A stretch of 43,412 nt of DNA from ANME-2 cluster archaeon (GTDB lineage: Archaea; Halobacteriota; Methanosarcinia; Methanosarcinales; Methanocomedenaceae). The notes beneath the pieces are model-generated. The model was given only the letters and a program-made list of their open reading frames with translations. It did not search any database and was not told the DNA's origin. The position numbers were made by a program, and so were the translations under genes. Location: NCBI GenBank assembly GCA_019429385.1, contig JAHYIS010000022.1, positions 1 to 43,412 on the forward strand, written 5' to 3'. Positions 627 to 42,325 of this stretch are shown here, in pieces. The number at the start of each line of letters is the position of its first letter. The stretch's first letter is position 1.

Positions 627-3218
627 TTGACTGAAAAATCAGATGACATGCCCGATCCAAAGCCTGAAAAAGCTCCAATAATTTCTTCGCTGAAAAATAT
701 GTTTTCAATTTACACTCCCTTTGTCATATTTATTTTTGCCCTTGCTTTGTACATACGCACAGTGCTCCCATATGATGCCGTATTCAGGGGAGGCATAGTA
801 GGATTTGCCGCCGATGATGCCGTATTCCATATGCGTCTTGTTGAGAACCTTCTTAAGAATTTTCCACATAGGATCTGGTTTGAAACATTCACATTATACC
901 CGTATGGCCAAAGCATCCACTTCGGCCCACTCTGGACATACATGATCGCTATCACTTCATTGATTTTGGGGGCAGGTTCCCCCAGTCTGGATTTGACACG
1001 AATGGTTGGTGCATATTTCCCCGGTATATTCGGCGCATTATTGGTATTTCCAGTGTATTTCATGGGAAGGGAGGTATTTGACAGGCGTGTGGGTCTGCTG
1101 GCGGCTTTCATGATTGCTGTTATGCCTGGTCAGATATTGTCTCGTTCCATAATGGGGTTTACTGACCACCATGCAGGTGAAGTGTTTTTCAGTACGTTAT
1201 ATTTGATGTTTTTAATTATGGCAATTAATTCGGTCAAGGGAATGGATATATCGGTTTTTGATATTCTTGAAAAAAATTGGGCCAAAATTAAGCATCCAGC
1301 TATTATTTCCATAATATCTGGAGTAGCTTTTAGCTTATACATGTTACAGTGGTCTAATGGTGTTTTCTTCGGTGGTATTGTTGCTATTTTCATTGTCCTG
1401 CAGTTTATAATATATCATATGAAGAACCAATCTAGCGAAGGATTATCTTTTGTTAGTTTTATCTCTTTTTTGTCTGCCTTTCCTTTAATTTTGTTTTTCG
1501 TTGACCCGATGAATTCATTCTCAGCCCACCGTTACTCCTACCTCCACATCCTTATCACCCTGGGCAGCGCCATATTCTTCCTGATTCTGGGCCTACTATC
1601 CATAAAAATGCGGGAAAAGAACATTGAGAGAATCTACTACCCCCTCACCATTGTTGGCATATACGCCACCGGTCTGGTCATAGCCAAGCTCTTCATTCCC
1701 AGCGTATTCTCAAGTTTTGCCACATTCTTCACCATCTTCCAGCCCCGCGAGGGCGGCGGCCTCACCATCGCCGAAGCCTCCCCCCCGCGCCCTGAAATGA
1801 TATTCGGATATGCTGGTTACCCCAACAATTTCGGCAACTACCCCGGCATCTTTGATTTCGTATCAACCTATTATATCGCCCTGCTTGCTATGGTTGTCAT
1901 CGGGGCCATACTCATCTTCCGCAAGTGGGAACCTGAAAAAGCCATGTTCCTTATATGGTGTTTCATAATGTTTGCCCTCACAACCGGCCAGAACCGCTGG
2001 TTCTACTACTATTCAGTCAATGTGGCCATACTATCATCCTTCATAGGCATAGGACTTCTCGACATTGCAGGCTTCAAAGACCTATCTCTAAAATTAAAAA
2101 CCCGGGTCTCGACCCCCAGCGACCTGCAGGAATTCATAACATCAGACCTGTCCCGTCATCTGCTATCCGCTCTCATTGTCGCAGTCGTGATCATGCTGGT
2201 ATTCCTGCCCAACTTCAACGTAGCATCCCGTTCCACAGCCGGCGGAGCAACCAGTTCAGACTACTACCAGTGGTACGAATCCATGAACTGGATGCGCTAC
2301 AACACCCCGGACCCCGGCCTTGACTTCGATGCTGTATATGACCGTCCACCAGCAGGTGAGACGTTCCCGTATCCGGACACCGCCTACGGAGTCATGTCCT
2401 GGTGGGACTACGGCCATGTCATCACCTACTTCGGTCACCGCATACCCAACGCCAACCCTTTCCAGGCAGGTATTGGCGGCGGCCCCTCCCACGCCCCGGG
2501 TGCATCTACATTCTTTACTGCCCAGTCAGAGGAAGATGCCGATGAAGTATTATGGAACCTTGGTATCAATGACAAACCGGGTTCACGCTACATTGTGAGT
2601 AACGCATACATGGCCTATGCCATTAATGATGTCATGGGTATATGGGACGGGAAGGACTGGAGCGATTTCAGGACGTATGCCGTGATTTCAGGTCAGCAAC
2701 AACTCGTTTACAAACAATACTGGTACACCAGCATGGAAGGTCGTCTGCATATCTTTGACGGTGACGGACTGAAACATTACCGTCTCGTGCATGAATCACT
2801 GGCCAATCCTTATGCCAGCGGTGGCAATATGGAACAGAGCTGCAAGGCACAATATAATATGCTCTATAGTGGAAATCTTAAAATCGAGAACACCGGTTTT
2901 GTCAAGATATTCGAATTTGTTGAGGGAGCTACCATTACTGGTAGTGCACCTGATAATGCTATTGTAACTTTATCGAATGATATTATGACCAATCAGGGAC
3001 GTTTATTCACCTATACCCAGACAACCACAGTTCAAAACGGTACATTCAGCTTTGAAGTACCTTATTCCACACTTGGCCCCGTTTCAGGCCAGACTAATTT
3101 CGACACCAGACCTATCGGCCCCTATACGCTCACGGTGGATACCATATCGAAGACAGTGGACGTGGCTGAACAGGATGTATTGAACGGGGGAACGCTCACG
3201 GTTAATATGATGGAATGA
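627..3218 (+). CDS. aglB: Archaeal oligosaccharyltransferase AglB (STT3 family)
   Basis: AglB transfers a lipid-linked oligosaccharide to asparagine in N-x-S/T sequons on the outer face of the membrane. The 863-residue protein has the family architecture: a short cytosolic head, a first membrane helix near residues 30-48, an acidic motif (A-D-D-A, residues 62-65) in the first external loop, many membrane helices to about residue 540, and a soluble domain carrying the signature W-W-D-Y-G at residues 592-596. The C-terminal ~100 residues look like a beta-rich extension. I use the TTG at 627 because GAGG (615-618) sits 8 bases upstream; the ATG at 648 has no such site. Codons for residues ~188-293 are much more AT-rich than the flanks (see findings). 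Identification is firm because of the signature and topology. Likely substrates include the sequon-rich cytochrome at 29.5 kb (inference). Confidence 0.95.
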   Translation: MTEKSDDMPDPKPEKAPIISSLKNMFSIYTPFVIFIFALALYIRTVLPYDAVFRGGIVGFAADDAVFHMRLVENLLKNFPHRIWFETFTLYPYGQSIHFGPLWTYMIAITSLILGAGSPSLDLTRMVGAYFPGIFGALLVFPVYFMGREVFDRRVGLLAAFMIAVMPGQILSRSIMGFTDHHAGEVFFSTLYLMFLIMAINSVKGMDISVFDILEKNWAKIKHPAIISIISGVAFSLYMLQWSNGVFFGGIVAIFIVLQFIIYHMKNQSSEGLSFVSFISFLSAFPLILFFVDPMNSFSAHRYSYLHILITLGSAIFFLILGLLSIKMREKNIERIYYPLTIVGIYATGLVIAKLFIPSVFSSFATFFTIFQPREGGGLTIAEASPPRPEMIFGYAGYPNNFGNYPGIFDFVSTYYIALLAMVVIGAILIFRKWEPEKAMFLIWCFIMFALTTGQNRWFYYYSVNVAILSSFIGIGLLDIAGFKDLSLKLKTRVSTPSDLQEFITSDLSRHLLSALIVAVVIMLVFLPNFNVASRSTAGGATSSDYYQWYESMNWMRYNTPDPGLDFDAVYDRPPAGETFPYPDTAYGVMSWWDYGHVITYFGHRIPNANPFQAGIGGGPSHAPGASTFFTAQSEEDADEVLWNLGINDKPGSRYIVSNAYMAYAINDVMGIWDGKDWSDFRTYAVISGQQQLVYKQYWYTSMEGRLHIFDGDGLKHYRLVHESLANPYASGGNMEQSCKAQYNMLYSGNLKIENTGFVKIFEFVEGATITGSAPDNAIVTLSNDIMTNQGRLFTYTQTTTVQNGTFSFEVPYSTLGPVSGQTNFDTRPIGPYTLTVDTISKTVDVAEQDVLNGGTLTVNMME

Positions 3219-5540: not shown

Positions 5541-6269
5541 CTATTTCACATTACCTGCGTGCAGTCCGCATTCTTTCTTGGTGGCTTCTTCCCACCACCA
5601 CCTGCCATCCCGCTCATGCTGGCCTGGAAGGACCTGTCTGGTACAGGGTTCGCATCCGATACTGGTAAATCCCTGTTCATGCAGTTCATTATAGGGGACA
5701 TCGTTGGCCCTGATATAGTCCCATACCTGTTTTGAGGTCCAGTTTGCAATGGGGTTGAACTTGACAAGTTGGTGGTCAGCACTGCCGAATGTCGGGTCGT
5801 CCTGTATCACGGGTACGTGGGTCCTGGTATTCGGGCTCTGGTCCTTGCGCTGTCCGGTAATCCAGGAATCCAGTTGAGAAAGTGCCCGCCTCAGGGGGTC
5901 CACTTTGCGCGCCTGGCAGCATTCCTGGTGGCCGTCGCGGTAGAATGAGAACAGTCCTTTTTCCTTGACCAGTTTTTCGGTTCTGTCCCTGTTGGCAAAG
6001 AATATCTCGATATTGATGCCGTAATGTTCACGCACTTTCTCGATGAACCTGTACGTTTGCGGGTGGAGCCGCCCGGTATCCAGGCTGAACACCCTCACAT
6101 TATCACTGAGTTTTGCTGCCATGTCAACCAGTACCACATCCTCTGCACCGCTAAATGAGATAGCTGCATTATTTCCAAAGGTATCCAGTGCTAATTTCAG
6201 GATGTCCTGGGGTGAGCGGTGCTCGTATTCGGCTGCAAGTCTTTCAATTTCTGCTGTTTCCATTGTCAT
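5541..6269 (-). CDS. cysH: Assimilatory APS (adenylylsulfate) reductase, CysH family
   Basis: A 242-residue cytosolic enzyme reducing activated sulfate to sulfite. The PP-loop S-F-S-G (residues 38-41) and [10 protein letters not shown] (63-72) mark the CysH family. Cys117-Cys118 plus Cys206-x-x-Cys209 form the CC...CxxC set that ligates a [4Fe-4S] cluster in APS-specific and dual-specific reductases, so APS is the more likely substrate than PAPS. The catalytic cysteine is in E-C-G-L-H (Cys234). A second ATG, two codons in, is equally possible as start. It is the last gene of a three-gene minus-strand operon (sulfite reductase, TusA-like carrier, then this gene, 4 bases after the carrier). That order gives sulfate-to-sulfide assimilation. 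No sulfurylase is seen in the window. Confidence 0.92.
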
Positions 6270-6273
6270 TTAT

Positions 6274-6513
6274 TCACCTTTTTTGAATGAGCATCCTGTA
6301 ATGGGTGTCACATTTTTCCAGTTTGATTATGCGGTTCCCGTCTTCCTTTACACTGCGAGAGACGTTCCTGACAGGTTCCCCCGCTTCAAGGGTGACTTCC
6401 AGTATCTCTCCCGGCAGCATGTCCTTCAGTTCGAACTTTGTCCGTACCATGTTCATAGGACAGACCTCGCCGCAGGTATCTATTGACCTTGAGGGGACCA
6501 TATCCGGATTCAT
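6274..6513 (-). CDS. TusA/SirA-family sulfur carrier
   Basis: A 79-residue protein of TusA size. The conserved cysteine that carries persulfide sulfur is in the motif C-G-E-V-C-P-M-N (Cys14, Cys18); canonical TusA has C-P-x-P, here C-P-M-N, a variation also known in TusA-like proteins linked to sulfite reductases. The rest has the usual beta-alpha-beta-alpha-beta pattern with a G-E-x-L-E-V segment. Its ATG overlaps the stop of the sulfite reductase gene by four bases (6510-6513), indicating translational coupling. It may relay sulfur from the reductase to biosynthetic targets or to the APS reductase step; which of these is inference. It is not a thiamine-type ThiS protein because there is no C-terminal Gly-Gly. 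Confidence 0.88.
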   Translation of the reverse strand: MNPDMVPSRSIDTCGEVCPMNMVRTKFELKDMLPGEILEVTLEAGEPVRNVSRSVKEDGNRIIKLEKCDTHYRMLIQKR

Positions 6514-7364
6514 AGTACAGCCTTCCTGAATGGTTCAATGCCCACACGAGTTACTGTATCGCCAATGCGTTCGCCTTTTTGGGCATTGTCTTTAAAGAAC
6601 CGGATGGTCTTATCAAGTATCTCAAAGAGCTGCACTTCATCCACCAGTTCAACGAATGCGGTGCCCAGTTGAGGGAACCGTCCTATTTTGCCGCCAATGA
6701 GCAGAGTATACCCTGTCTTTTCGATAATCCATGCGTCGGTGGGACAGGATGAGATACAATCACCGCAGAGGTCGCATTTCTCGCGGTCGAATGTTACGAC
6801 ACCGTCCTCGACAATGATGGCATCCTTGCGGCATATCTCCTGGCACAGGCCGCAGCCAATGCATTCCTCTTCGAGCCATTTAGGCTCCACACCGCCGATG
6901 GCCCCGAAATCGTTCTCCTGGGGTTTGGCGCAGGAAGCCGGGCATCCTGTGATGCTTATCTTGAACTTATGGGGAACTCCGGCAGCAAAATATTTCTCAT
7001 CGATCTTCTGTGCCAGGTCCTGCGGGTTGACCAGGCCCCGCGGGCAAACGGTATTGCCCTGGCAGGCCATGATACCCCGTATGCGGGGTCCGCAGGTACC
7101 TTTGCGCAGGTTGGCATCTGCCATGTCTTTCCTGACTGATTCCACATCATCTGCGTGTATGAACGGGATCTCAATACCCTGCCTGGTGGTCAGGTGTATA
7201 TGCCCGTCCCCGTATTTTTCTGCTGCATCTGCCAGCGCCCTGAGCTGGTCGGCTTCGATACGGCCGCCCACTACCCTCAGGCGGAAGGCGAACTGGTTTG
7301 GCTGGCGCTGCCGCATGAAACCGCCTGATTTAAGAGATTCATAATCTATAGTTCGTTGTGTCAT
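6510..7364 (-). CDS. Small assimilatory-type sulfite reductase with ferredoxin domain
   Basis: A 284-residue sirohaem protein of the small dsrA/asrC-like (Fsr C-terminal-like) type. It opens with an N-terminal half-domain (residues ~15-75, ending H-I-H-L-T-T-R-Q-G-I-E). The sirohaem/[4Fe-4S] ligands follow in order: C101-x5-C107 and C141-x3-C145. Inserted after them are two ferredoxin motifs, C168/171/174/178 and C197/200/203/207, which would feed electrons to the active site. The protein reduces sulfite to sulfide; methanogen homologues also defend methyl-coenzyme M reductase against sulfite. It is the first gene of the operon with the TusA-like carrier and APS reductase. The start ATG at 7364 lies 176 bases from the divergent phosphate permease gene, so the shared spacer should hold both promoters. 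Confidence 0.9.
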   Translation of the reverse strand: MTQRTIDYESLKSGGFMRQRQPNQFAFRLRVVGGRIEADQLRALADAAEKYGDGHIHLTTRQGIEIPFIHADDVESVRKDMADANLRKGTCGPRIRGIMACQGNTVCPRGLVNPQDLAQKIDEKYFAAGVPHKFKISITGCPASCAKPQENDFGAIGGVEPKWLEEECIGCGLCQEICRKDAIIVEDGVVTFDREKCDLCGDCISSCPTDAWIIEKTGYTLLIGGKIGRFPQLGTAFVELVDEVQLFEILDKTIRFFKDNAQKGERIGDTVTRVGIEPFRKAVL

Positions 7365-27723: not shown

Positions 27724-28656
27724 TCAGACCAGTTTCCTTATAGGATGACCGTCGACCGGTTCCACGTCCAGGTCGGCCACGCTTTCAGATATCATGATGT
27801 CTGCCATTGCTGCAACAGGAAATGTGTACTTCGCATTTTCGATAGGCCCGTAAAGTATGAAATCGCCGGCAGCCATCTGTTGCAGACCAGTGGATGCGAT
27901 GTCGCATATCCGGTAGATGAGCTTGTCTTCCTTACTTTTATCACGTAGCCAGTTCCAGGCTGATGGTGCATTGTGAATACCTGAACCTACAGGATACCCC
28001 CATTTCGCTTTGGCACTTATGCACATTCTCAGTGCGATACCTGCACCATTGCCCATGGGAGTAATGCTCGGGTCAATTAACTTTTTCGTTATACCGCATT
28101 CATCAGCAGTTTCCAGTAACCCGTGCGGGAGTACACGTCCGCCGTTTTCAAGCAGTTCCATTCTCCCGTCAAGACTGGAATCCATTGCATTGAATCCCAG
28201 GATGATGGCGGCGTCAATATCTGAATTGGCCAGTGCTTCGACCTCATCATCTGTGACCGACATGTTCAGGCTGTTGTAGATGGTCTTGTCTGCCAGCCCC
28301 ACTTCGCTGACATAATTCGCAGCTGCCGCTCGCACCGTGGAATCAGTGGAATCGAGCAGGAATGGGACATCGGTTGTTGCACTGACAAAGTCCAGGTAAC
28401 GTTGTGCAGCCTGGGGGGTTTCAGCATAGATGTGTATCATGTGCGGATTGCCGGTCTCATCTGAAAGGGTCTCCTGCATGTTGATAAGTGATTCTGCGGC
28501 CTGTTTGTCAAATATGCCTGCGCCTGGGTCCGATACTATATTGTGTTTATTGTAGAAGATAGTGCCTGCCAGTACAGTAGGGAACTGCCCTGGTTGACCT
28601 CCGATCCTGACATTCGCGATATTGATGACCTGCTGTTCTTTTTTGAATACGAACAT
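27724..28656 (-). CDS. mtrH: MtrH-family methyltransferase subunit
   Basis: A 310-residue soluble protein. MtrH transfers the methyl group between methyl-tetrahydropterin and the corrinoid on MtrA. The sequence begins F-K-K-E-Q-Q-V, then I-G-G-Q-P-G-Q-F-P-T-V-L-A-G-T-I-F-Y, the hallmark of MtrH, and continues as a pterin-binding TIM barrel with S-D-P, L-L-D-S-T-D, I-L-G-F-N-A and D-P-S-I-T-P-M-G-N-G-A-G. Its gene follows mtrA by 25 bases; none of mtrB-G is nearby. The sequence is complete. Because the partner MtrA is unanchored, the pair probably acts in the cytosol without sodium pumping, like the Mtx proteins of Methanosarcina. The pterin could be H4MPT or H4F (inference). Confidence 0.88.
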   Translation of the reverse strand: MFVFKKEQQVINIANVRIGGQPGQFPTVLAGTIFYNKHNIVSDPGAGIFDKQAAESLINMQETLSDETGNPHMIHIYAETPQAAQRYLDFVSATTDVPFLLDSTDSTVRAAAANYVSEVGLADKTIYNSLNMSVTDDEVEALANSDIDAAIILGFNAMDSSLDGRMELLENGGRVLPHGLLETADECGITKKLIDPSITPMGNGAGIALRMCISAKAKWGYPVGSGIHNAPSAWNWLRDKSKEDKLIYRICDIASTGLQQMAAGDFILYGPIENAKYTFPVAAMADIMISESVADLDVEPVDGHPIRKLV

Positions 28657-28681
28657 TGTTATCTATCCTGAAAATTTGGGA

Positions 28682-29275
28682 TTATATCTGGACGAACACT
28701 AACCCTGATGTGGTATCCATCAGAATATCGTTGGCTATCATTATATCTGCACCTTTTATTTCGCGCTCAACGTGTTTTTTCTTTCTGGCTGATTGGACCA
28801 CCATGGGCGGGTGGGGGAAGGGTTCACCTTTCGACTTATATTCCTCGATTATCGCCTGAATCTCACCAGCCTCAACCAGTCCCCGCCTGTCGATGAGTTC
28901 AACCTGCGCCCTGAAATGTTCAATGGCATCGTGTGGGATGTTCTCAATAAAAGGTATGGCTCCGTTTGAACCAATAATCCTGCCATGTCCATCTATACCG
29001 TTGGTGTGGATTGCCAGGAGTGTATTTCCTGACAGGTGTCCTTTTGATTCCTGGCCGCACACCAGGATATACCTGATATTTGAATTGGAGATGGTATTTG
29101 CCATTATTTTCTCTATGCCAAGGTTCTCGGTCTTGCAGCTTCCCATTATACAGGCACCAGGGAGCGGGTCCATATCGCTTGCAAGGGTGACCACAGAAAT
29201 GCGGGATTCAGGGTCTATTATGGTATAATCTCCCCTGACCGGTGGCCATTCCTGCGCGATGGTGTCATTTGACAT
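28682..29275 (-). CDS. mtrA: MtrA-family corrinoid protein lacking the C-terminal membrane helix
   Basis: A 197-residue corrinoid-binding protein. Motifs of MtrA are intact: W-P-P-V-x-G-D-Y near the N terminus, G-S-C-K-T-E-N-L-G-I-E-K (residues 45-56), and G-Q-E-S-K-G-H-L-S-G, where His80 corresponds to the lower axial cobalt ligand. N-G-A-I-P-F-I-E-N-I-P follows. Methanogen MtrA is about 240 residues and ends in a membrane helix; here the protein stops at V-F-V-Q-I with no hydrophobic segment. It is therefore probably soluble. It is the first gene of a two-gene unit with mtrH and has its own upstream region with a TATA-like element. The methyl acceptor (CoM, homocysteine or other) is unknown. 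Confidence 0.9.
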   Translation of the reverse strand: MSNDTIAQEWPPVRGDYTIIDPESRISVVTLASDMDPLPGACIMGSCKTENLGIEKIMANTISNSNIRYILVCGQESKGHLSGNTLLAIHTNGIDGHGRIIGSNGAIPFIENIPHDAIEHFRAQVELIDRRGLVEAGEIQAIIEEYKSKGEPFPHPPMVVQSARKKKHVEREIKGADIMIANDILMDTTSGLVFVQI

Positions 29276-29544: not shown

Positions 29545-32500
29545 ATGTTAAACATTCAAAATAGATTGATTGTTGTATTTTTGATTTTGTTTATCGTATT
29601 TAATACCGGTACTGTAAGTGCAACATCAGATTGCCTGGATTGCCATGCTGAAACTGTAACAATAATGCCCGATATTGAAAATCCACATTTGCTACCTGAA
29701 CCCGCTCAAACTGTATCTTCTATGAGTACCACGGGTTCTGAGGTCGGGATCCTCTCAGCCAGTTCCCCTCCCCTGGTGTATGATATTACTTCAAGAGGAA
29801 AAGCAACAACTGCATTTATCGCCTGGAAGACCAACGAATCCACTGATAATCGTGTGTATTTCGGGACCGATGAGGCAGATATTACTTCCTGGGTCAACGG
29901 AACATGGAGCAACTGGAAAAATAACACCCTTTCCCCCTCAATTACTTTGACAGACCTTTCCATAAATACCTCTTATTATTATCGAATTGAAAGTACTGAT
30001 GACTATGGAAATGTTAATAGTACCGACATACCTGTCCAGTCTTTTACCACTGCTTTTTTGAATATGGAGATATCCACAAATCGAATTGTGATACTGGATG
30101 ACCCAATGTATGCAGGGAGCAATGCAGCACCGGGGTTTGAGAATCCGCCAGACCCTGTTTTACAGCAAAACTGGACCGGCAATGACTGGAACAACGATTA
30201 CTGGAAAGATGAATCTACCACTATCCGGGCTTATGTATTAGTTATGGATGTTCAGGGAATGGGCGCAGATAACACACCTGTAAACTTCACTTTGAAAAAT
30301 CCGGCAGGGATTGTAATTGACCAAAGCAGTTCGATCACCGATTCAGGAGGCATCGCTTCGTATCTATTTGATATGAATAATAAGAACTACTGGGGAACCT
30401 GGATAATCGAGGTCAATTCTACTGTTGATGGTAAGTTTGTACATTCAAGCACTGATTATATCCTCAACTGGTGGGGATGTGCACTGTGCCACGGAGACCC
30501 GGGGCCTGTGATTTTCAACCAGACCCTGAGCATGAACGGTAATGCAACCAATCCTGATTTTCCAATCCCGAATTCTCCCTATGCTATGGGGTATGACATG
30601 GCACACCAGCTTACTGTTGTCGGTGGAAATATGAGTAATTATCATGGCAAGTTTTATTCTATAGATTATTCTTTACTTGGATGGTACGGAAACGGACATG
30701 AGAACTATTCTTATAACCCTGTAGGGTATAGTCAGTTCCCGGATACTAAATGTGTGCACTGCCATCAGGGGTATGATGGTTATCCCGGAGGGAATACTTC
30801 GGCAACATACATTGACTTCAGACAGGACTACCATAATTTTTCATGCGATTCTCATGCCTGTCACGCCGTTGAGGGGCGGGTGCAACCCTATCAAAGTAAT
30901 TTCGGGATTCCTGAGATGAAGTCATGCGGGTTCCAGTTCATTCTGCCTGACGATGGCGGGATTGCCAGTAAACAACCCCAGTGTCATGCAATATGGGGTG
31001 ATATTTATGACGTACCATATGTGGCAGGTGGGAATGGAAACGTAACCATCGTATCCACTCTGGATGACAATAACAATGATTCAAATGATCAGGCAAGGGT
31101 CAATTACTCGGATTCAATTCCAGCGTCAGGAGACCCACTTAGATTGCACACTCTAAATGATAAGGTCCCATGCGTCCTATGTCATGGCCCGAATCACGGT
31201 ATTAGAAATCCGGACCCTTCCACATTTGAACGTAGATTATCTGCTGTTGATGAGGCCGATAAAATTGCTACCAGATTTGCAGATGGGTGTGTAATATGCC
31301 ATCAGCCGGAGCCTACTTATAAGAATCCCGAATCAACATGTGAAGTATGTCATGTTGGTTTGGATATTTTACCTTTTGAGCAAAATTCGAATGGGACTAC
31401 TGAGATATCCCACTGCCAGACCTGTCATACAAAAAAGCAGCACAATGCATCTGTTGACTGCACGGTATGTCACAGCCAGGATGCACATATAATAAAATAT
31501 TTTGATATAAACGGTGATTATAGTCCTTTACAATCAAATGCCGGGAACTGTACTACCTGCCACCAGAATAATAAATTAAGTACTATCCTGGCAAATCCCA
31601 AAGCTGGTACCTATTCTGGCAATGCACCACTGGTAAATGACCCTACCACACACAGTGTAAATAGCATCAACGGTACTCTCTGGGACCGGGGTGTCAATTT
31701 CTGGGTTAATACAAGCCAGGTTACAACATGTTTATACTGTCACGGGAACACAACACATGAAAGTACTGCGTTAGGATATCCCGGTATTTTCCAGGGGATA
31801 AATATCGTAGGTGGCGACCTGTCTGGTTCGTGGTGTGGAAGTTGTCATTACCAGAATAACACAAATTATGATGTGATGGCAGGAACAATGGACCCTGTCC
31901 CGCCAGAGATAACCGGAAATGCTACGTATGGGAATTATACAATAGCGGATGACGGAACCACTATCTATTTCGACCATTCAAATATCAGTTCATTTAATGA
32001 TTCACGGTGCAGTCATTGCCATAATAACTCCGCGACCACTTCCACCGGACTCATGCATGGTGTCCTGGATGGATTGGGGGGACCGGATTGCATTTTGTGT
32101 CATGAAGGCAGTGGTGTGATTGGTACATTGACCATCAATATGACGCTATTCAACCAGTCGCCACATGCGAACATCAATAATGGCAATGCCACAAATAATA
32201 AGCACTGTTATATGTGCCACCGGGATGGTACGGCGCCAATTGGTGCCACCGGCCAGGCAGAACATATCTCAAAAGAGATACGGTACAATGCTTCAGACAG
32301 GTCATGTGCGGATACGGAATGCCACGGGAACACTTCATCTTCGATATATGTAGGTTCCCACTTTGATAATGCCACCCAGTACGGCAGGTTTGAATCCGGT
32401 TTTGTCCGTACATCCCAGACGTGCGAATTCTGTCATGGGAAGACCCAGGTGCCCATATTCAACGAATCCATCCCCGGTAATGGTAGCAACATAAGCATGG

Positions 32501-35500
32501 TCCTGGACGACGGCACAGGTCCAACTGGCCATTATGTGAGGAACATAGTAGATGGTGATAGCCACTATGTGGTCGATACTGTTGGCTGGGAAGTGGACGG
32601 GAAGAACGGGAGCCAGGGTTGTGTTTACTGTCACAAGGACCAGAGTGAGGTCTTTGGCGCCACGAATATATCTTCCTGGGCAAACCATTCAACATTTGGC
32701 AATAACTGTTATCGCTGTCATATCAACGGCACTACGTACCTTCATGACCTGGGTGTTATTACGGCATCTGGCGGCACACCTGATTGTCTTGGTTGTCACG
32801 GATTGGGTAGACCCCAGGAAGATATCAATGAAACCGCCTTCGGCCTGAGTATCCATAAAGACCTCAATACGAATGCCACAAATGTGACCGTCCTTAACAA
32901 CACCCTGAGCAAAACCTGCTGGGCCTGTCATGGCAACGGTTCAGAACCTGGCGGCCATATTAATAATTCACTGGGACCCAACGTCCCTGCCAACACCACA
33001 CGGCCGCTAAACTGCAGCGAGGCAAAGTGTCACGTCAACGGTACAGCGATCTACAATGTCACTATCAACGGTACCCAGCCTATTTCAACCATTGAACACA
33101 TTCCCGGGCAGTTCAGAAGTACCCTCACAGATATTATTGCGGTTGACTGCACCCTTTGTCATAAAAATTCCCTTACCTATAATAATGATACAAAACGCGG
33201 GCTTGCTAATGAATCAGATGCATCGAACGTGTCCCATTATGGCAGTTTGACAACTACGAACATCAGTGCGGTCAAGCCCACCACGGATTGCACACTGTGT
33301 CATAAGAACACCACCAACAATGTCACGTGGGGTGGTGCGATGCAGGTCAGGCATCCGGTGAACAAATCGACCAGCTTTTGCGTGAATTGTCACGGTAGTG
33401 GGACTACCTTCCATGCCGAGAATCTTTCCACGGTTCCTGAGATACATTCATCTGGTTTTGACTGGGAAGGTGATGGTATTGATTCTTTTTCCATATATCC
33501 TCCTTTATTATCACAGGATATGGAGGGTTGCTTTGCCTGTCACAATGGAACCGTGGATTTTGCCACAATGGGTCAGGATATTGATGATGACAACAGCAGG
33601 ATATGTGAAGAATGCCACTATAACAATTCTGTTGGTCCATTTACTATTAACATCAGCATGCGAAGTGATGTATCCGATACTATTCCACGCGTATACAATC
33701 ACATAAATGATAGTGCGAATGCTACGGTTGTCATAAGGACGAACCTGACCGCATCAAGTACTTCTCAGTTAAGCAGCCCATCGACATGTTTCAACTATAA
33801 CAATAACACCGGTAATGGAGCATGCCATGGTGTGAGCTATGAGAACCGGACTGATGCTGGCGGATATTATGCTTTCAATAATTATGAAATATCAATGAAA
33901 GCAAGCACGAACATGAGTCCGTATCGTTATACACAGACCATTGACCACATGCCCAACACCACAGACTGCCGCATATGCCACCTCGGTGCAAATAGTAGTG
34001 TAGGTACCCTTGTTGAAAGTTCTTACTGGGGCAATCCCATGAACGTTTCTGACACCAAACCCACCATTCCTACCCACATCAACATTAATGCCCAGATAGG
34101 GGACTGCTGGGCCTGCCACGTATTTGGCGGTGTACAACCGCTGGACTTCCATGATGTCAATATCACCGGTGGTGGCGGTCCGGATTGTATCAGTTGCCAT
34201 GATGTGGGACGTAGCGGTGCAACATCATGGGTCAATGTCAGTGCCTTGAACGGCAGTCTCAATGGCAATGCCAGTATCCATTACGCAATCAATAACGCCA
34301 CTACAGGCACCGGAGGCAGTACGGGTAATCCTGACAACCAGATATGCTGGGCATGTCACCAGTCCGACGGCAGCGAACCGTCAGGCATGGGCGATATTTT
34401 CGAAGATCCCTACAAGTGCTATGACTGCCATGACGGTACAGCACCGTATACTAATGTCAGCAATGCTCCTGGCGTTTTCCAGCACTTTGTGAACGGCAGT
34501 GCATTGAAAGCGGCATCTAATGCTCCTGACAATTCCAGTTCATGCCTGGTATGCCACAACCTCACCGAGATGAAGGTAGAATACAGCGAAGGTATCGACA
34601 CCTACAGTACGAATTATTCCATTCCATCCCACTACGGCCGTAACCGCAGCAGCGGTCCCGACAGCCTGAGAACAGGCCCCGGCAACAGTGTCAACTGCAG
34701 CTACTGTCACCAGACCCCGGGCAACAACTTCACCTCAGCCATGGTCAATATCAACAATGCCTCAGTACCTAACCATAGCCTTGCCTATAACGCTACCACC
34801 CCCTACTGTACCGAATGTCACAATGGCGGCTGGATGCACAACGCATCACTATACAAACCCACGAACCTCACCATTGAGAGTTCAGGTCTGTGTCTTTCCT
34901 GCCATGGAGATGCGAAGAGCTACACCGGTCCAATGGTCACCAGTAATAAATCCAGGCACAACAACAGCCTTGATTGTACCCAGTGCCATATCAATACCAG
35001 TAAACGCGACATCCATGGTATCAAGTACCTGCAGACCGACGGCAGTTCATATACAACAGTCAATACCACAGCAGTCAACTGCACCACCTGTCACCAGGAC
35101 AATGCCTCGGCTGTGAACCAGTCACTTAACCCGATACCATTGATACAAAAACCCATGTACCACAGCGAGGACCCAATGGCAGGCCGGAAATGGAATGATT
35201 CGTATAGTCCTTACTGGAACAACACCAATGAAGCCTGCGAATACTGCCATAACGCGACGTTGCATGAAGTGGATGCCCTTGGCAACCTCGCATCCTTGCG
35301 CAGCAATACTACTGACCTGAGTGATTACATATGTGCTTCCTGCCATAAGAGCGGCAGTGCCATGTACAGCTCGATCGGAGGCAATGCAAACTTCAGTAAG
35401 ACTCCACCCGAGATTACTTTGACAATTAATTCAAACGATGGTACATTTTTCTACAACCACAGTACACTCTCAGATTTCATTGATTCGATATGCAAAGGCT

Positions 35501-36246
35501 GCCATGGCAATTCAAGCAATCCACCACAAAATACGACTATTTTCGCACATGACGTATATGGGGCAAATATCACTTTGTGTATCAACTGCCATGATGCTCC
35601 ACTTGGTCTGGTACCCACTACTGTTCAGTTGAATGTTTCGGCCACCAACAACGGTTCGGAATCAATACATTATAATCTTAACAGTGCAGCTTCAGATGAT
35701 AACCTGCGTTGCTATGCGTGTCATGCGAATGGCAGTGCTCCATCCAGCCATCCATCACTTTCAGACGCTAAACTGTGCGATGAGTGTCACGTTACCCTCA
35801 ACTTCAGTGCGCCATTGGTTGGCAGGCATATACCAAATGCTTCAGCTCCACAGCAGTTTAGTACTTCCAATATAACGACGAATTATGCCCAGTGCTGGAA
35901 CTGCCATAACAACAGTGTCAATAGCAGTGCAACCATGTGGCAGAACAACAGGTCTCTTGTATCCCATTACGGTACGAACAGCAGCCTGGTCAGGACCAAT
36001 TCAAATAGTACTGTAGACGAGTGTTACAATTGCCACTGGAATACCACAAACCAGTATAAGTATGGAAATGCTCCCCAGACCCAGATGGCATCCCAGATAC
36101 AGTGTTACGAATGCCATAATGGCGACTGGAAGTTCGAGAGAAGAATGCCGGGCCTCCCAGAGATGTGGGTGTTCTATTCATCAGAACCGGGAGATTTGCA
36201 CAATCAACAGATGGGGACGTATTGGGCTTGTTCCACGTGCCATTAA
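29545..36246 (+). CDS. Giant multihaem cytochrome c with about 45-50 haem-binding motifs
   Basis: A 2233-residue exported protein. Residues 1-26 are a signal peptide; the first haem motif (C30-L-D-C-H34) follows at once. Residues ~70-170 resemble a fibronectin type III domain and ~172-305 a second beta-sandwich. From residue ~311 to the end the protein is almost entirely haem-binding: by eye I count 45 CX2CH motifs, three CX4CH (30844, 32305, 33013) and two long-spaced candidates (CX18CH at 30925, CX11CH at 33787). Asn/Thr/Ser content is very high and N-x-S/T sequons are abundant, so it may be heavily glycosylated. There is no evident C-terminal membrane helix or S-layer domain; the last residues are C-S-T-C-H. 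It likely conducts electrons outside the cell, as proposed for ANME multihaem cytochromes. ResB and CcsA genes follow directly. Confidence 0.95.
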   Translation: MLNIQNRLIVVFLILFIVFNTGTVSATSDCLDCHAETVTIMPDIENPHLLPEPAQTVSSMSTTGSEVGILSASSPPLVYDITSRGKATTAFIAWKTNESTDNRVYFGTDEADITSWVNGTWSNWKNNTLSPSITLTDLSINTSYYYRIESTDDYGNVNSTDIPVQSFTTAFLNMEISTNRIVILDDPMYAGSNAAPGFENPPDPVLQQNWTGNDWNNDYWKDESTTIRAYVLVMDVQGMGADNTPVNFTLKNPAGIVIDQSSSITDSGGIASYLFDMNNKNYWGTWIIEVNSTVDGKFVHSSTDYILNWWGCALCHGDPGPVIFNQTLSMNGNATNPDFPIPNSPYAMGYDMAHQLTVVGGNMSNYHGKFYSIDYSLLGWYGNGHENYSYNPVGYSQFPDTKCVHCHQGYDGYPGGNTSATYIDFRQDYHNFSCDSHACHAVEGRVQPYQSNFGIPEMKSCGFQFILPDDGGIASKQPQCHAIWGDIYDVPYVAGGNGNVTIVSTLDDNNNDSNDQARVNYSDSIPASGDPLRLHTLNDKVPCVLCHGPNHGIRNPDPSTFERRLSAVDEADKIATRFADGCVICHQPEPTYKNPESTCEVCHVGLDILPFEQNSNGTTEISHCQTCHTKKQHNASVDCTVCHSQDAHIIKYFDINGDYSPLQSNAGNCTTCHQNNKLSTILANPKAGTYSGNAPLVNDPTTHSVNSINGTLWDRGVNFWVNTSQVTTCLYCHGNTTHESTALGYPGIFQGINIVGGDLSGSWCGSCHYQNNTNYDVMAGTMDPVPPEITGNATYGNYTIADDGTTIYFDHSNISSFNDSRCSHCHNNSATTSTGLMHGVLDGLGGPDCILCHEGSGVIGTLTINMTLFNQSPHANINNGNATNNKHCYMCHRDGTAPIGATGQAEHISKEIRYNASDRSCADTECHGNTSSSIYVGSHFDNATQYGRFESGFVRTSQTCEFCHGKTQVPIFNESIPGNGSNISMVLDDGTGPTGHYVRNIVDGDSHYVVDTVGWEVDGKNGSQGCVYCHKDQSEVFGATNISSWANHSTFGNNCYRCHINGTTYLHDLGVITASGGTPDCLGCHGLGRPQEDINETAFGLSIHKDLNTNATNVTVLNNTLSKTCWACHGNGSEPGGHINNSLGPNVPANTTRPLNCSEAKCHVNGTAIYNVTINGTQPISTIEHIPGQFRSTLTDIIAVDCTLCHKNSLTYNNDTKRGLANESDASNVSHYGSLTTTNISAVKPTTDCTLCHKNTTNNVTWGGAMQVRHPVNKSTSFCVNCHGSGTTFHAENLSTVPEIHSSGFDWEGDGIDSFSIYPPLLSQDMEGCFACHNGTVDFATMGQDIDDDNSRICEECHYNNSVGPFTINISMRSDVSDTIPRVYNHINDSANATVVIRTNLTASSTSQLSSPSTCFNYNNNTGNGACHGVSYENRTDAGGYYAFNNYEISMKASTNMSPYRYTQTIDHMPNTTDCRICHLGANSSVGTLVESSYWGNPMNVSDTKPTIPTHININAQIGDCWACHVFGGVQPLDFHDVNITGGGGPDCISCHDVGRSGATSWVNVSALNGSLNGNASIHYAINNATTGTGGSTGNPDNQICWACHQSDGSEPSGMGDIFEDPYKCYDCHDGTAPYTNVSNAPGVFQHFVNGSALKAASNAPDNSSSCLVCHNLTEMKVEYSEGIDTYSTNYSIPSHYGRNRSSGPDSLRTGPGNSVNCSYCHQTPGNNFTSAMVNINNASVPNHSLAYNATTPYCTECHNGGWMHNASLYKPTNLTIESSGLCLSCHGDAKSYTGPMVTSNKSRHNNSLDCTQCHINTSKRDIHGIKYLQTDGSSYTTVNTTAVNCTTCHQDNASAVNQSLNPIPLIQKPMYHSEDPMAGRKWNDSYSPYWNNTNEACEYCHNATLHEVDALGNLASLRSNTTDLSDYICASCHKSGSAMYSSIGGNANFSKTPPEITLTINSNDGTFFYNHSTLSDFIDSICKGCHGNSSNPPQNTTIFAHDVYGANITLCINCHDAPLGLVPTTVQLNVSATNNGSESIHYNLNSAASDDNLRCYACHANGSAPSSHPSLSDAKLCDECHVTLNFSAPLVGRHIPNASAPQQFSTSNITTNYAQCWNCHNNSVNSSATMWQNNRSLVSHYGTNSSLVRTNSNSTVDECYNCHWNTTNQYKYGNAPQTQMASQIQCYECHNGDWKFERRMPGLPEMWVFYSSEPGDLHNQQMGTYWACSTCH

Positions 36247-36396: not shown

Positions 36397-37824
36397 ATGG
36401 AATTGATTGATACGTGGATAAAAAAGGTCCCTCGTTTTTTCCGGTCAAGAAAACTTACCATCTACCTGATCTCAATGGTCATATTACTTTCATTTATTGG
36501 TACCATCATTCCCCAGCAGCATATTTTTACTCATACACACATGGAGGAGATGAAAAACCAGAGTGTATTCCTGGATTATATGGATACGATAGGATTCACC
36601 GCAATCTACACTTCATGGCTGTTTTTCGGGGTAATGCTCCTGTTGTATCTTAACACGATATTCTGTACGTATGATATGTGGCGGAATTCTATCCGGAAAA
36701 TGAAACGAGGTAGCAATTTCAGAAAAAAAGATGGGATATCCGGACTTGCCAATAATGCCCTCGTGGTACTTGCTGGAACATCTGTTCAATCTCGTGATAC
36801 AATAATATCTCACCTTGAAAAACGGCGTTATAAGGTGCAGCAAAATGGGAATTCCTTTGTCGCCACAAAGAACCGGCTTGGGATATTTGGCACCCCTGTG
36901 TTCCACCTTTGTATCCTGCTGGTACTGGGAGCTATTCTGTATGGTGGTGTAGGCAGGATGGAAGGGCGGTTGCAGCTGGTGGAAGGCCAGACATTGTATG
37001 AGCAGCACCAGGATTATTTTTACGTGGCTGAAGGTCCACTGTTTGATGAGAAGCACCAGAATTTTGGTTTTATTCTTGAGCGGTTCCATCCCCGGTATGA
37101 AGATGATGAAGGTGTTTACCGGGGGATTGCCAGCGAGATCCTTATTATTAGGGATGGAAAGGTGGTGAAAAAAGACGTGTTGCACTCCAACCACCTGATA
37201 ATCTATGAAGATGTAACCCTCTTCCAGAACGAGTACGGGTTTGCACCCCTGTTCCTATTGAAAGATGCGACCGGTGCGGTGATATCCGGTTCGTATGTGT
37301 ATGCAGAGGACGATGGCAGTGGCAGGTATTTAACCGTATTTCCGGTGGCAGATACCGGGCTTACGGCCCAGATAACCCTGTACCCGAACACTTCAAGGAG
37401 AATACTGGAAAGTGGTTATGATATGCCCCAGAATCCACAGGTATATCTTGAACTGTTCGAGGGGGAAGAGCAGGTATTTGACGGTGTGTTAGGGTTGAAC
37501 CAGCTGGTGAAGCTGGGTAATTATCCTGGTATGGGTGAAGTGACGCTGGGATTCTATGACCTGAAGTATTGGAGCATTATTTCTGTCGTGACAGATCACG
37601 GGATACCCTTTATCTTCGGGGGAATATACCTGGCACTATTTTCAATGATAGTGATGTTCTTTTTCAGTCCCAAACATATTTTTGGGGTATTTGAGAATGA
37701 TGGGTTTGGTAGACCTGTTTTATATATAGGTGGAAAGAGTGATAAATATAAATCGTCATTTGAATATGTATTTAATAATCTAATTGAAGAAATAAAAGAG
37801 GCAGTACAAGATGAGTCAACTTGA
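36397..37824 (+). CDS. resB: ResB/Ccs1-type cytochrome c biogenesis protein (System II)
   Basis: A 475-residue membrane protein. It begins with a short cytosolic segment and a helix containing I-S-M-V-I-L-L-S-F-I-G-T-I-I-P-Q-Q, the hallmark region of ResB; a second helix lies near residues 65-88 and a third near 167-190. A large external domain (~195-400) and a final helix (I-P-F-I-F-G-G-I-Y-L-A-L-F-S-M, ~410-430) follow. ResB with CcsA exports haem and ligates it to CXXCH cysteines outside the membrane. The gene starts 150 bases after the giant cytochrome and overlaps the CcsA gene by 14 bases, so it is probably dedicated to, or at least co-expressed with, that cytochrome. No System I (Ccm) gene is in the window. 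Confidence 0.9.
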   Translation: MELIDTWIKKVPRFFRSRKLTIYLISMVILLSFIGTIIPQQHIFTHTHMEEMKNQSVFLDYMDTIGFTAIYTSWLFFGVMLLLYLNTIFCTYDMWRNSIRKMKRGSNFRKKDGISGLANNALVVLAGTSVQSRDTIISHLEKRRYKVQQNGNSFVATKNRLGIFGTPVFHLCILLVLGAILYGGVGRMEGRLQLVEGQTLYEQHQDYFYVAEGPLFDEKHQNFGFILERFHPRYEDDEGVYRGIASEILIIRDGKVVKKDVLHSNHLIIYEDVTLFQNEYGFAPLFLLKDATGAVISGSYVYAEDDGSGRYLTVFPVADTGLTAQITLYPNTSRRILESGYDMPQNPQVYLELFEGEEQVFDGVLGLNQLVKLGNYPGMGEVTLGFYDLKYWSIISVVTDHGIPFIFGGIYLALFSMIVMFFFSPKHIFGVFENDGFGRPVLYIGGKSDKYKSSFEYVFNNLIEEIKEAVQDEST

Positions 37825-38653
37825 ATGGATCTTATATTTATCCGCGTCTTCATTGTATGGTATTAGCGCTGTATTATATATTCTCAGTGTGGTTTTCAAG
37901 AAAGAAGAATGGTTGAGATATGGTGCACTGGCAGCGTTTGTCGGGCTATTGCCCCATACGGGTTCATTGTATATCAGGTGGGTAGAGTCGGGACATGGAC
38001 CCTATATGACCATACATGAAGTATTTTCATCCTATGCCTGGGTCTCAGTGGCTCTGTTCCTGCTTGTGGCTCTAAGAGTAGAAAGGATACGGTTGGCGGG
38101 AATGGTCGTGGTTCCTGTTTCGTTTATTATGATGGGAATGGGAGCAACTCTTTCACGGGAAATATACTCAATTCCTGCATCGCTGAGCAGTTACTGGCTG
38201 ATCGCTCATGTGGGTTTTGCCAAACTTGCTTTTGGAGGTATTCTGATAGGTACTGCTCTTGCGGTGTTATACATCCTTAACGAGCGACAGGAGCAAGGAA
38301 AGGGTTCTGAGGGGATGAAGAAGTTCCTGGGGCGTTTTCCTGGTAAAGATATGATGGACGACCTGAGCTACCAGTTTGTAAGTGCCGGCTTTTTATTTCT
38401 CAGTGTGATGATAGGGGCAGGAGCGATATGGGCTTACCAGACCTGGGGACGGTACTGGGCATGGGACCCTATTGAGACCTGGTCTTTGATTGTGTGGTTT
38501 ATTTATGGTATTTTCCTGCACTTGCGGATGAATGCTGGATGGCGGGGTAAAAAGAGTGCTTGGATGCTTGTTGTAGCAATATTCATACTGGCTTTTTCGT
38601 TGTTTGGTACTGGTATTGTTTATACTGGATTACACTCTGCATATATGGTATAA
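37811..38653 (+). CDS. ccsA: CcsA/ResC-type haem-handling protein (WWD domain)
   Basis: A 280-residue protein with about eight membrane helices. The tryptophan-rich WWD motif W-G-R-Y-W-A-W-D is at residues 212-219 in the context G-A-I-W-A-Y-Q-T-W-G...D-P-I-E-T-W, which fits CcsA rather than CcmC. External histidines expected as haem ligands are visible at H-T-G-S near residue 56, at H-V-G-F near 136 and near the C terminus at G-L-H-S. Together with ResB it forms the System II cytochrome c synthetase. The ATG overlaps the end of resB by 14 bases and GAGG (37798-37801) lies upstream. The gene is followed by about 170 AT-rich bases, probably the operon end. Confidence 0.92.
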   Translation: MSQLEWILYLSASSLYGISAVLYILSVVFKKEEWLRYGALAAFVGLLPHTGSLYIRWVESGHGPYMTIHEVFSSYAWVSVALFLLVALRVERIRLAGMVVVPVSFIMMGMGATLSREIYSIPASLSSYWLIAHVGFAKLAFGGILIGTALAVLYILNERQEQGKGSEGMKKFLGRFPGKDMMDDLSYQFVSAGFLFLSVMIGAGAIWAYQTWGRYWAWDPIETWSLIVWFIYGIFLHLRMNAGWRGKKSAWMLVVAIFILAFSLFGTGIVYTGLHSAYMV

Positions 38654-38826: not shown

Positions 38827-40275
38827 ATGAAAAAGAAGGTCCTTTTAATCACTCCTCCCTACCACTGCGGGGTACTTGAATCTGCAGGGTCCTGGATGCC
38901 ATTGGGTCTGGTATATGTCGCAGGGAGCCTGCAGCAGGCGGGCTATGAGGTGGAGATATATGACGCGATGACCAGGTTCGATACTTTTGATGATATCAGG
39001 GTACGTATTGAAGCGTCTGCGCCTGATGTTGTTGCTTCTGCCGGTTATACTTCTAGTAATTATGATGCTATCCAGGTGCTTCGCATCGCCAAGGAGGTCA
39101 ATCCGGAGATAATCACCAACCTGGGCGGTATCCATGCTACGTTCTGCTGGAATGAGATCCTGGAGGGCGATGCTGAGGCAGTGGATTATGTGATAGTTGG
39201 TGAGGGCGAGGAAACTACGGTGGAATTGCTTGACCACATTTATTCTGGCAGGGACCCGTCGGGTGTGGCAGGGATAGCGTACGTCAAGGATGGGAAGGTG
39301 GTTCATACCGGACCCCGGACATTTATTACTGACCTGGATTCGTTGCCTGCGGCCTGGGACCTGGTGGAATGGGGTGATTATTCGTTCAAGACCAAGGCGA
39401 ATTCTATTCTGGCGGTGGTGAGTTCATCGAGGGGGTGCACCCAGAAGTGCACGTTCTGCTCCCAGAGGTTGTTCTGGAAAGAGACGTGGCGTGCCCGGAG
39501 TCCTGAGAATTTCGTGGCTGAACTTGAGCATCTGAACCGTACCTATGGCGTGGATGTGGCTATGATAGCGGATGAGTTCCCTACCTATGACAGGGAGCGG
39601 TGGGAGAAGATCCTTGATCTGCTTATTGAGAAGGGACTGGACCTGGAGATATTGATGGAGACCAGGGTTGATGATATTTTGCGGGACAGGGATATTATCC
39701 ACAAGTACCGGGAGGCGGGTATTTTGCACATTTATGTGGGTGCAGAGTCTGCTGACCAGGAAACACTGGACAGGTACCAGAAGGACCTGAAAATAGAAGA
39801 GTCCAAGGAGGCTATCGACCTTATCAACAGCATGGATATTGTATCCGAGACCTCATTCGTGATGGGGATGCCAAATGAGACAGCTGAGTCTGTCAGGGCG
39901 ACCCAGGAGCTGGCTGCGTATTATGATGCAGACCTGACATTCTTCCTGGCAATTGCGCCCTGGCCGTATTCTGATATTTATGCTGAACTCGAGCCGTATG
40001 TTGAGGTTAAGGATTATTCCAAGTATAATCTTGTCGAGCCTGTGGTGCGGCCTATTGCTATGAGCAGGGACGAGTTGAATGCTCACCTGCTGGAGTCGTT
40101 CCGGAAATTCTACATGGATAAGTTGTCCAGGGTAGAGGAGATGAGCGATTTCAAAAGGCGCTATATGATCGATGTGACCAAACTGCTGATAAGTGATTCT
40201 TACCTGTCCGAGCAGATGAAAGGTGGCGAGATGCCAATAGTAGTCAAGAAGTTCTTTGATAGATATATTGACTGA
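38827..40275 (+). CDS. Cobalamin-binding radical SAM protein (class B methyltransferase/BchE-like)
   Basis: A 482-residue cytosolic enzyme. Residues ~1-140 are a Rossmann-like B12-binding domain (L-L-I-T-P-P-Y near the N terminus, then P-L-G-L-V-Y-V-A-G-S-L and V-G-E-G-E-E). The radical SAM motif C-T-Q-K-C-T-F-C lies at residues 204-211, followed by a TIM-barrel half with A-D-E-F and a C-terminal helical domain. Members methylate unactivated carbons or do oxidative cyclisations such as BchE; the substrate cannot be deduced. Relatives are common in Methanosarcinales. It stands alone after the cytochrome biogenesis genes, with ~170 bases between, so a haem- or tetrapyrrole-related role is possible but only suggested by position. 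Confidence 0.88.
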   Translation: MKKKVLLITPPYHCGVLESAGSWMPLGLVYVAGSLQQAGYEVEIYDAMTRFDTFDDIRVRIEASAPDVVASAGYTSSNYDAIQVLRIAKEVNPEIITNLGGIHATFCWNEILEGDAEAVDYVIVGEGEETTVELLDHIYSGRDPSGVAGIAYVKDGKVVHTGPRTFITDLDSLPAAWDLVEWGDYSFKTKANSILAVVSSSRGCTQKCTFCSQRLFWKETWRARSPENFVAELEHLNRTYGVDVAMIADEFPTYDRERWEKILDLLIEKGLDLEILMETRVDDILRDRDIIHKYREAGILHIYVGAESADQETLDRYQKDLKIEESKEAIDLINSMDIVSETSFVMGMPNETAESVRATQELAAYYDADLTFFLAIAPWPYSDIYAELEPYVEVKDYSKYNLVEPVVRPIAMSRDELNAHLLESFRKFYMDKLSRVEEMSDFKRRYMIDVTKLLISDSYLSEQMKGGEMPIVVKKFFDRYID

Positions 40276-41135: not shown

Positions 41136-41396
41136 ATGTCTTATGAGTTTGAAATTACTGAAACTCTCCTTCGAAAATTCAAAAAACTTCAAAAAAAGGA
41201 TAAAGTGCTCTTTTTGGCATGCCGCAAAAAGATTAGCGAGATCATACAGAATCCATTGCATTACAAACATCTGAAATATGAAGACCGTTTTAGGGTGCAT
41301 GTTGGCGGTTCGTTCGTTATGACATACAGAGTATTTGAAGAAGAAAAACTGATACTCTTTCTGGATATTGAACATCACGACAGGGTATATCTGTAA
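41136..41396 (+). CDS. relE: RelE/ParE-superfamily toxin (first module)
   Basis: An 86-residue basic protein with the RelE fold pattern: an N-terminal beta strand F-E-I-T-E-T-L-L, helix L-R-K-F-K-K-L-Q-K-K-D-K, then H-L-K-Y-E-D-R-F-R-V-H-V, G-G-S-F-V-M-T-Y-R-V, and the closing strand I-L-F-L-D-I-E-H-H-D-R-V-Y. RelE-type toxins cleave mRNA at the ribosome; ParE-type members poison gyrase. The arginines and the final H-H-D-R-V-Y favour mRNA interferase. Paired with the antitoxin 11 bases upstream. Confidence 0.85.
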   Translation: MSYEFEITETLLRKFKKLQKKDKVLFLACRKKISEIIQNPLHYKHLKYEDRFRVHVGGSFVMTYRVFEEEKLILFLDIEHHDRVYL

Positions 41397-42067: not shown

Positions 42068-42325
42068 ATGTATAATGTTGTTTTAACAAATAGAGCTGTG
42101 AAGAATTTTAAGAAATTGCCTGAAGAATTACAAAATCGATGTGGAGAAATATTTGATGACCTTGAGTATTCTTTCGCTCCAATCAGATTAAATGTTAAAA
42201 AACTAAAAGGATATGAAAACACTTACAGAATTCGCATAGGTTCGTGGCGGATAATTTATAAAGTAGATAATAATATAAAATCGATTGTTATTTATGATAT
42301 TTTACCAAGAAAAAGTGCCTATTGA
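42068..42325 (+). CDS. relE: RelE-family mRNA interferase toxin (second module)
   Basis: An 85-residue basic protein matching RelE: V-V-L-T-N-R-A-V-K-N-F-K-K-L-P at the N terminus, a helix with L-P-E-E-L-Q-N-R, then V-K-K-L-K-G-Y-E-N-T-Y-R-I-R-I-G-S-W-R-I-I-Y-K-V, the hallmark L-x-G-x-x-x-x-Y-R-I-R-x-G-x-x-R-I-x-Y, and the tail I-L-P-R-K-S-A-Y. The conserved arginines and the C-terminal tyrosine suit mRNA cleavage at the ribosome. Both genes of the pair are AT-rich compared with the core genome, a common sign of transfer. Confidence 0.92.
   Translation: MYNVVLTNRAVKNFKKLPEELQNRCGEIFDDLEYSFAPIRLNVKKLKGYENTYRIRIGSWRIIYKVDNNIKSIVIYDILPRKSAY

Follow-up and report, generated by a model that had tools for sequence, protein, structure and literature searches.

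A secreted giant cytochrome with 50 haem-attachment sites, a shared haem-ended tail and exchanged array blocks in an ANME-2 archaeon

Introduction

Global methane cycling poses the open question of how anaerobic methanotrophic (ANME) archaea hand electrons over to partner bacteria. In this work, we analyse a stretch of 43,412 nucleotides from an ANME-2 cluster archaeon (GenBank assembly GCA_019429385.1, contig JAHYIS010000022.1, positions 1 to 43,412; hereafter the window), in which one gene encodes a multihaem cytochrome c of 2,233 amino acids, and we ask what role such a protein may have. An earlier reading made from the letters and a list of their open reading frames (the sequence-only reading) took it for an extracellular conductor. 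Based on our data, we favour a secreted electron-transfer cytochrome, probably heavily N-glycosylated, whose 50 covalent and almost all bis-His haems would make up a chain for conduction on the outer side of the cytoplasmic membrane in a methanotroph of the ANME-2a/b family. We give this reading a probability of about 0.75. It builds on the site count, conservation, secretion signal, sequon enrichment, C-terminal tail, block exchange and gene neighbourhood. The genome under study (G000; 2.4 Mb, 70 contigs) was compared with relatives, which likewise carry G numbers; contigs carry C numbers.

A secreted chain with 50 haem-attachment sites

The gene and its parts are as follows.

29545..36246, + strand: giant multihaem cytochrome c, 2,233 amino acids, 50 haem-attachment sites (motif count; Pfam PF22113, PF14522)
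29545..29622, + strand: signal peptide, residues 1-26, ending TGTVSA before TS (sole hydrophobic stretch; cleavage site inferred by eye)
29632..29646, + strand: first haem motif, CLDCH, residues 30-34, right behind the signal peptide (motif count)
29788..30051, + strand: beta domain 1, residues 82-169, purple-acid-phosphatase-N (Pur_ac_phosph_N) or FN3-like (PF16656, 31.5-35 bits, cut-off 30)
30220..30417, + strand: beta domain 2, residues 226-291, MG2 or Big_1 Ig-like (PF01835, 27.7-30.2 bits, below the cut-off of 32.8)
30478..36243, + strand: haem array, residues 312-2233, 49 sites, about 39 residues per haem (motif count, repeat comparison)
30925..30987, + strand: CX18CH motif, residues 461-481 (motif count, sister-species comparison)
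33787..33828, + strand: CX11CH motif, residues 1415-1428, signature PSTCFNYNNNTGNGACHGV (motif count, paralog comparison)

The open reading frame starts with ATG and stays open through all 2,233 codons. Its product contains 45 CX2CH motifs, whereas shuffles of the same residues contain 0.2 on average and never more than two, which rules out a chance origin. Together with three CX4CH motifs (residues 434, 921 and 1157) and the two longer ones, the total is 50 CH motifs, in which all 100 cysteines are used and none is left over. The script count thus returned what the sequence-only reading had estimated, about 45 CX2CH motifs and up to 50 sites. That reading had also described the motifs as near-regular down to the last residue. 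The final residue is indeed a haem-motif histidine, but the regularity is only rough, successive CX2CH motifs lying 15 to 140 residues apart, with a first gap of 282. The motif at residue 30 stands alone, N-terminal to both beta domains.

The only hydrophobic stretch lies at residue 8, and no second hydrophobic segment, other membrane helix or C-terminal transmembrane segment was found across the whole protein. Many CXnCH motifs and an export signal, the marks of a multihaem cytochrome c, are therefore both present. The length, the signal peptide and the two beta-type domains of the sequence-only reading were all recovered, the second domain just under its cut-off. Residues 174-350, around the MG2-like domain, recur in giant cytochromes of other ANME-related families.

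The haem array consists of diverged repeats of about 200-240 residues each, which match MtrC/MtrF domain II/IV and c7 families (PF22113, PF14522). Of the two long-loop motifs, CX18CH is found at the same site in G004 with a loop of 18 residues and in G006, the other sister species, with a loop of 13, its Cys and CysHis being kept in both. The CX11CH motif is, on comparative grounds, genuine and not an accident of counting, as many paralogs of this genome, two sister species and one giant cytochrome from a different family (G033) have kept the signature PSTCFNYNNNTGNGACHGV.

Conservation and predicted glycosylation

A full-length ortholog of 2,243 amino acids, 70% identical, occupies the same place beside MtrA/MtrH in G004 (public record JAMJFV, 'ANME-2 cluster archaeon B4-08'), an independently assembled genome of the same genus. 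Its sites, too, number exactly 50, and its 100 cysteines are all paired. Every proximal histidine (50/50) and 48 of the 53 other histidines are kept between the two proteins, which fits bis-His electron-transfer haems. Conservation reaches 99% for Cys, 97% for Trp and 95% for His, most other residues staying at 46-78%. With a whole-gene ratio of nonsynonymous to synonymous divergence (dN/dS) of 0.18, the gene is, as judged from this comparison, intact and under purifying selection. A frameshift splitting the gene, which the sequence-only reading had named as a possible refutation, is contradicted by this syntenic ortholog.

The cytochrome has 119 N-X-S/T sequons where 41.7 are expected (2.85-fold), a number that none of 300 shuffles reached. 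The excess is located in the haem array, and none was seen in nine other proteins of the window. The cytochrome is thus probably heavily N-glycosylated. A candidate enzyme for this predicted modification is encoded outside the cytochrome cluster:

627..3218, + strand: AglB/STT3 oligosaccharyltransferase (PF02516, PF22627, PF18079)

A tail common to several genes and blocks exchanged within the array

Comparison with paralogs and sister species divides the array further.

35614..36243, + strand: C-terminal module, residues 2024-2233, terminal haem motif WACSTCH, common to C5, C41 and C51 (paralog comparison)
32065..33324, + strand: exchanged haem block 1, residues ~841-1260, closer to the paralog C19 than to the G004 ortholog (sliding comparison)
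34225..35664, + strand: exchanged haem block 2, residues ~1561-2040, mostly closer to the paralog C35 than to the ortholog (sliding comparison)

The tail, that is, the last ~210 residues, is 84-86% identical to the C41 and C51 proteins over their last 135-150 residues and 76-87% identical to that of C5; elsewhere these genes differ from the one in the window. Across several paralogs and orthologs the module is 73-86% identical. The C41 and C51 tails share 98.8% of their DNA over 135 codons and were first suspected to be one gene, yet their 3' flanks differ, which rules this out; the tail is therefore common to at least four genes of the genome. Full-length copies are restricted to the genus, matches in other genera ending before the final ~40-55 residues.

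In the sliding comparison, residues ~1-840, ~1261-1560 and ~2041-2233 have their best match in the G004 ortholog or in the sister species G006. Block 1 departs from this pattern, with, for example, 92 of 120 residues matching C19 and 46 of 120 the G004 ortholog. Synonymous divergence from the ortholog follows the blocks, being 0.47 at the head and saturated at residues 1641-2020. Paralogs have thus swapped haem-array blocks, whereas head, core and tail group with the ortholog; the site number stays at 50 in both species despite the exchange. In block 1, G006 sides with the window, and G004 may therefore be the species in which this replacement took place.

A System II synthetase pair directly downstream

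Three genes follow the cytochrome.

36397..37824, + strand: ResB, System II cytochrome c synthetase subunit (PF05140, 158.6 bits)
37811..38653, + strand: CcsB/CcsA-type haem-handling subunit, System II (TIGR03144, 194.2 bits, over the cut-off of 187.6)
38827..40275, + strand: B12-binding radical SAM protein, conserved neighbour of ResB-CcsB (PF02310 and PF04055)

ResB starts 150 nucleotides downstream of the cytochrome and overlaps CcsB by 14. CcsB aligns to the solved CcsBA structures 25vk and 7s9y, and its WWD segment (WGRYWAWDPIETW), together with AHVG, LHLR and GLHS, lines up with them. Both System II components are thus present and adjacent, with the WWD segment and the presumed axial His regions aligned. 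The likeness to CcsBA lies in this WWD-type segment and the conserved His regions; the difference is that here the system is archaeal, split into two separate genes and placed beside a giant cytochrome. In archaea, a 2015 survey had detected no proteins of Systems II-V (PMC4429474). Our ResB control search matches Methanosarcina acetivorans, so ResB-like proteins are not unique to the genus.

ResB-CcsB adjoins a giant cytochrome also in G006, G029, G033 and G037. Within the genus, ResB occurs in the four tail-bearing genomes (G000, G004, G006 and G007, the tail of the last being represented by short end fragments) but not in G001, G002, G003 or G005. Given incomplete genomes and shared ancestry, this co-occurrence is only suggestive. 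The radical SAM gene adjoins ResB-CcsB at eight of the ten ResB loci counted, and its product is 71-73% identical across families, against ~40% for ResB; a role in haem or cytochrome maturation would be a guess.

Relation to known giant cytochromes

The ANME multihaem cytochromes (MHC) of types A, B and C carry 20-80 sites, the largest having 86, in ANME-2c, and CcmF2, a dedicated protein for haem attachment, adjoins type B (Chadwick et al. 2022, PMC9012536). The cytochrome in the window resembles them in its exceptional size, secretion, some non-standard Cys spacing and a haem-attachment gene nearby, and differs in its FN3/MG2-like head and in having a System II neighbour instead of CcmF. It lacks the S-layer domain and C-terminal transmembrane segment of MHC-A, as well as the S-layer domain, M6-like N-terminal region and adjacent CcmF2 of MHC-B, its neighbour being ResB-CcsB. 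With the remaining type it agrees in being free of both S-layer domain and transmembrane segment, but the pectin-lyase or beta-helix region is unmatched and the N-terminus is purple-acid-phosphatase-N plus MG2 instead. No M6-like domain was found, nor any pectin-lyase or beta-helix match at E up to 10. Based on these profile searches, the protein is without the domains that define types A, B and C.

Contrary to the sequence-only reading, 50 haems are not the upper end for a single chain. The same genome encodes a 6,597-amino-acid secreted cytochrome with 73 CH sites (L118:118-19911, contig C5), and a relative, G029, a 5,599-amino-acid one (L119:93-16892, contig C49) with 121 sites, that is, 113 CX2CH and eight longer motifs. 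Published proteins reach 86 (PMC9012536) and, in Methanoperedenaceae Mn-2, 113 haems (Leu et al. 2020, PMC7327174). The latter is likewise a giant MHC, and the G029 protein may be that protein or a close relative, since it has exactly 113 CX2CH motifs. This homologue aligns to the cytochrome in the window at 25-29% and also has an MG2-like region, but it is over twice as large and ends in a C-terminal membrane helix. In the C5 cytochrome, FG-GAP, MG2 and F5/8C domains come first, followed by cytochrome-family matches, which lie in the C-terminal part, and the same haem-ended tail. On contig C43, a giant cytochrome has 51 CH sites in a 1,798-amino-acid open fragment (L100:12198-17594), with a 225-amino-acid cytochrome-c-assembly protein just downstream.

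Proteins of this general kind are thus already known and larger ones exist. The architecture appears to be undescribed, provisionally, since the literature covered was open-licence papers. The new details are the tail common to at least four genes, the block exchange between paralogs and ResB-CcsB directly downstream.

Organism and remaining genes of the window

That the organism is an ANME archaeon, as previously proposed, agrees with the presence of methyl-coenzyme M reductase, whose McrA, of canonical type, is nearest to the ANME-2a/b/2d side. McrA identity is 88-96% inside its own family (f1), 78-80% to a family (f5) that is probably Methanoperedenaceae and 64% to an ANME-2c-like one (f2; the score of the solved ANME-2c McrA is similar). 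A further family (f3) has divergent homologues (42-47%) resembling ethyl-CoM reductase, and another (f4) looks methanogen-like. By elimination, f1 would be the ANME-2a/b family. Sister-species records seem to come from marine samples, judging from their names (CSMAG taken as cold-seep metagenome-assembled genome).

Divergent from the cytochrome gene lie MtrA and MtrH-type methyltransferase genes (27724-29275, - strand); beyond them come SHMT, pterin-binding, formyltransferase and MTHFR-like genes, which makes this a cluster of C1/folate type. Two short open reading frames (41136-41396 and 42068-42325) have, by eye, a RelE-type toxin look and small upstream partners. PAPS-reductase-domain and sulfite-reductase-like genes of assimilatory sulfur type are found at 5541-7364 (- strand).

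Discussion

The sequence-only reading was right to call the protein an extracellular conductor insofar as it is a secreted multihaem cytochrome, for which conduction is the likeliest role. In our model, the cytochrome would work beyond the S-layer, outside the cell, where electrons would reach it from cytochromes of the membrane or the S-layer, for instance the S-layer cytochrome of contig C18. The haem array would then pass them outward, either to other cytochromes of the matrix or to the partner bacterium. The small beta head, made up of the FN3-like and MG2-like domains, most likely serves as a variable binding part that attaches to the cell surface, the matrix or a partner, and the haem-ended tail is probably the electrical contact that this cytochrome and its paralogs have in common with a shared redox neighbour. 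Haem attachment would be carried out, probably at least in part, by the adjacent ResB-CcsB. Where the protein sits, which way the electrons flow, what its head and tail do and how ResB-CcsB serves in its maturation are all parts of the model.

Several observations weigh against it. In G007, ResB-CcsB and the radical SAM gene occupy the same locus with Mtr genes beside ResB and no cytochrome between, and ResB is missing from most relatives with giant cytochromes, such as G008 and G018. Additionally, the genome also encodes System I CcmF-like proteins, so System II need not serve this cytochrome. AlphaFold2 models of the N-terminal 518 residues (two sequences, confidence score pLDDT 26.7) and of the C-terminal 704 (five sequences, 25.0) are unusable, so that haem stacking is presumptive.

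Among other explanations, a charge store or adhesive matrix cytochrome, acting as electron capacitor and scaffold rather than as a directed wire, is a possibility of some weight, given 50 haems in one secreted chain with a sequon excess, adhesin-like beta domains and several divergent paralogs. The conserved sites and nearly one extra histidine per haem, however, fit conduction equally.

Less probable is a conduit like ANME MHC-A/B, anchored in the S-layer and carrying electrons through it. The organism group and size class are the same, and other giant cytochromes of this genome do have S-layer domains. In the present protein, however, no S-layer domain (PF07752) was found at E up to 10, there is no C-terminal membrane helix, and the chain ends in a haem-motif histidine. 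The beta domains, which the sequence-only reading had offered as S-layer anchors, could possibly bind a partner or surface; it is a different giant cytochrome of the genome that has a detectable S-layer domain. Near-identical cytochrome starts at the ends of contigs C24 and C38 (L094, L095) overlap the start of this S-layer-bearing cytochrome on C18 (L098), and the three probably represent one giant gene and a recent duplicate.

Similarly doubtful is head-to-tail polymerisation into a nanowire, in which the tail would join the next subunit. The mature chain has a haem motif at either terminus (residues 30-34 and 2229-2233), which, like the strongly conserved tail, speaks for it. On the other hand, the whole protein has no sequence match to solved structures in the PDB, filament cytochromes included, at E<=0.01, and paralogs with different heads share the tail, an arrangement equally in keeping with a common docking partner. 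The OmcS, OmcE and OmcZ and the archaeal PcECN and AvECN filaments are likewise extracellular c-type haem chains, and the CX14CH motif of OmcZ is comparable to CX11CH and CX18CH, but filaments are built of many small subunits and this cytochrome is one long chain. MtrC/MtrF and cytochrome c7 provide the related haem-module families, with c-type haems for extracellular electron transfer; MtrC/MtrF, however, hold 10 haems at a bacterial outer membrane, against 50 at an archaeal surface. Finally, many contig ends of this genome fall within such repeats, but a chimeric assembly or pseudogene is hardly credible given purifying selection and a complete syntenic 50-site ortholog in an independent assembly, by which we dismiss a frameshift or assembly artefact.

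Returning to the secreted conductor, that 50 sites is not a record corrects the first reading. Its 50 sites are fixed in two species, it has no S-layer domain, it shares its tail with paralogs and a System II pair lies nearby, which makes the cytochrome a clean test case for electron transfer from ANME archaea to their partners. A bolder and still tentative idea is that one ANME-2a/b genus has a modular system of giant cytochromes, in which varied heads and exchangeable array blocks would be combined with one conserved haem-ended tail that docks on a conduit common to all of them, maturation being the task of a dedicated archaeal System II synthetase. If true, recombination would be tuning a plug-in set of molecular wires in these archaea.

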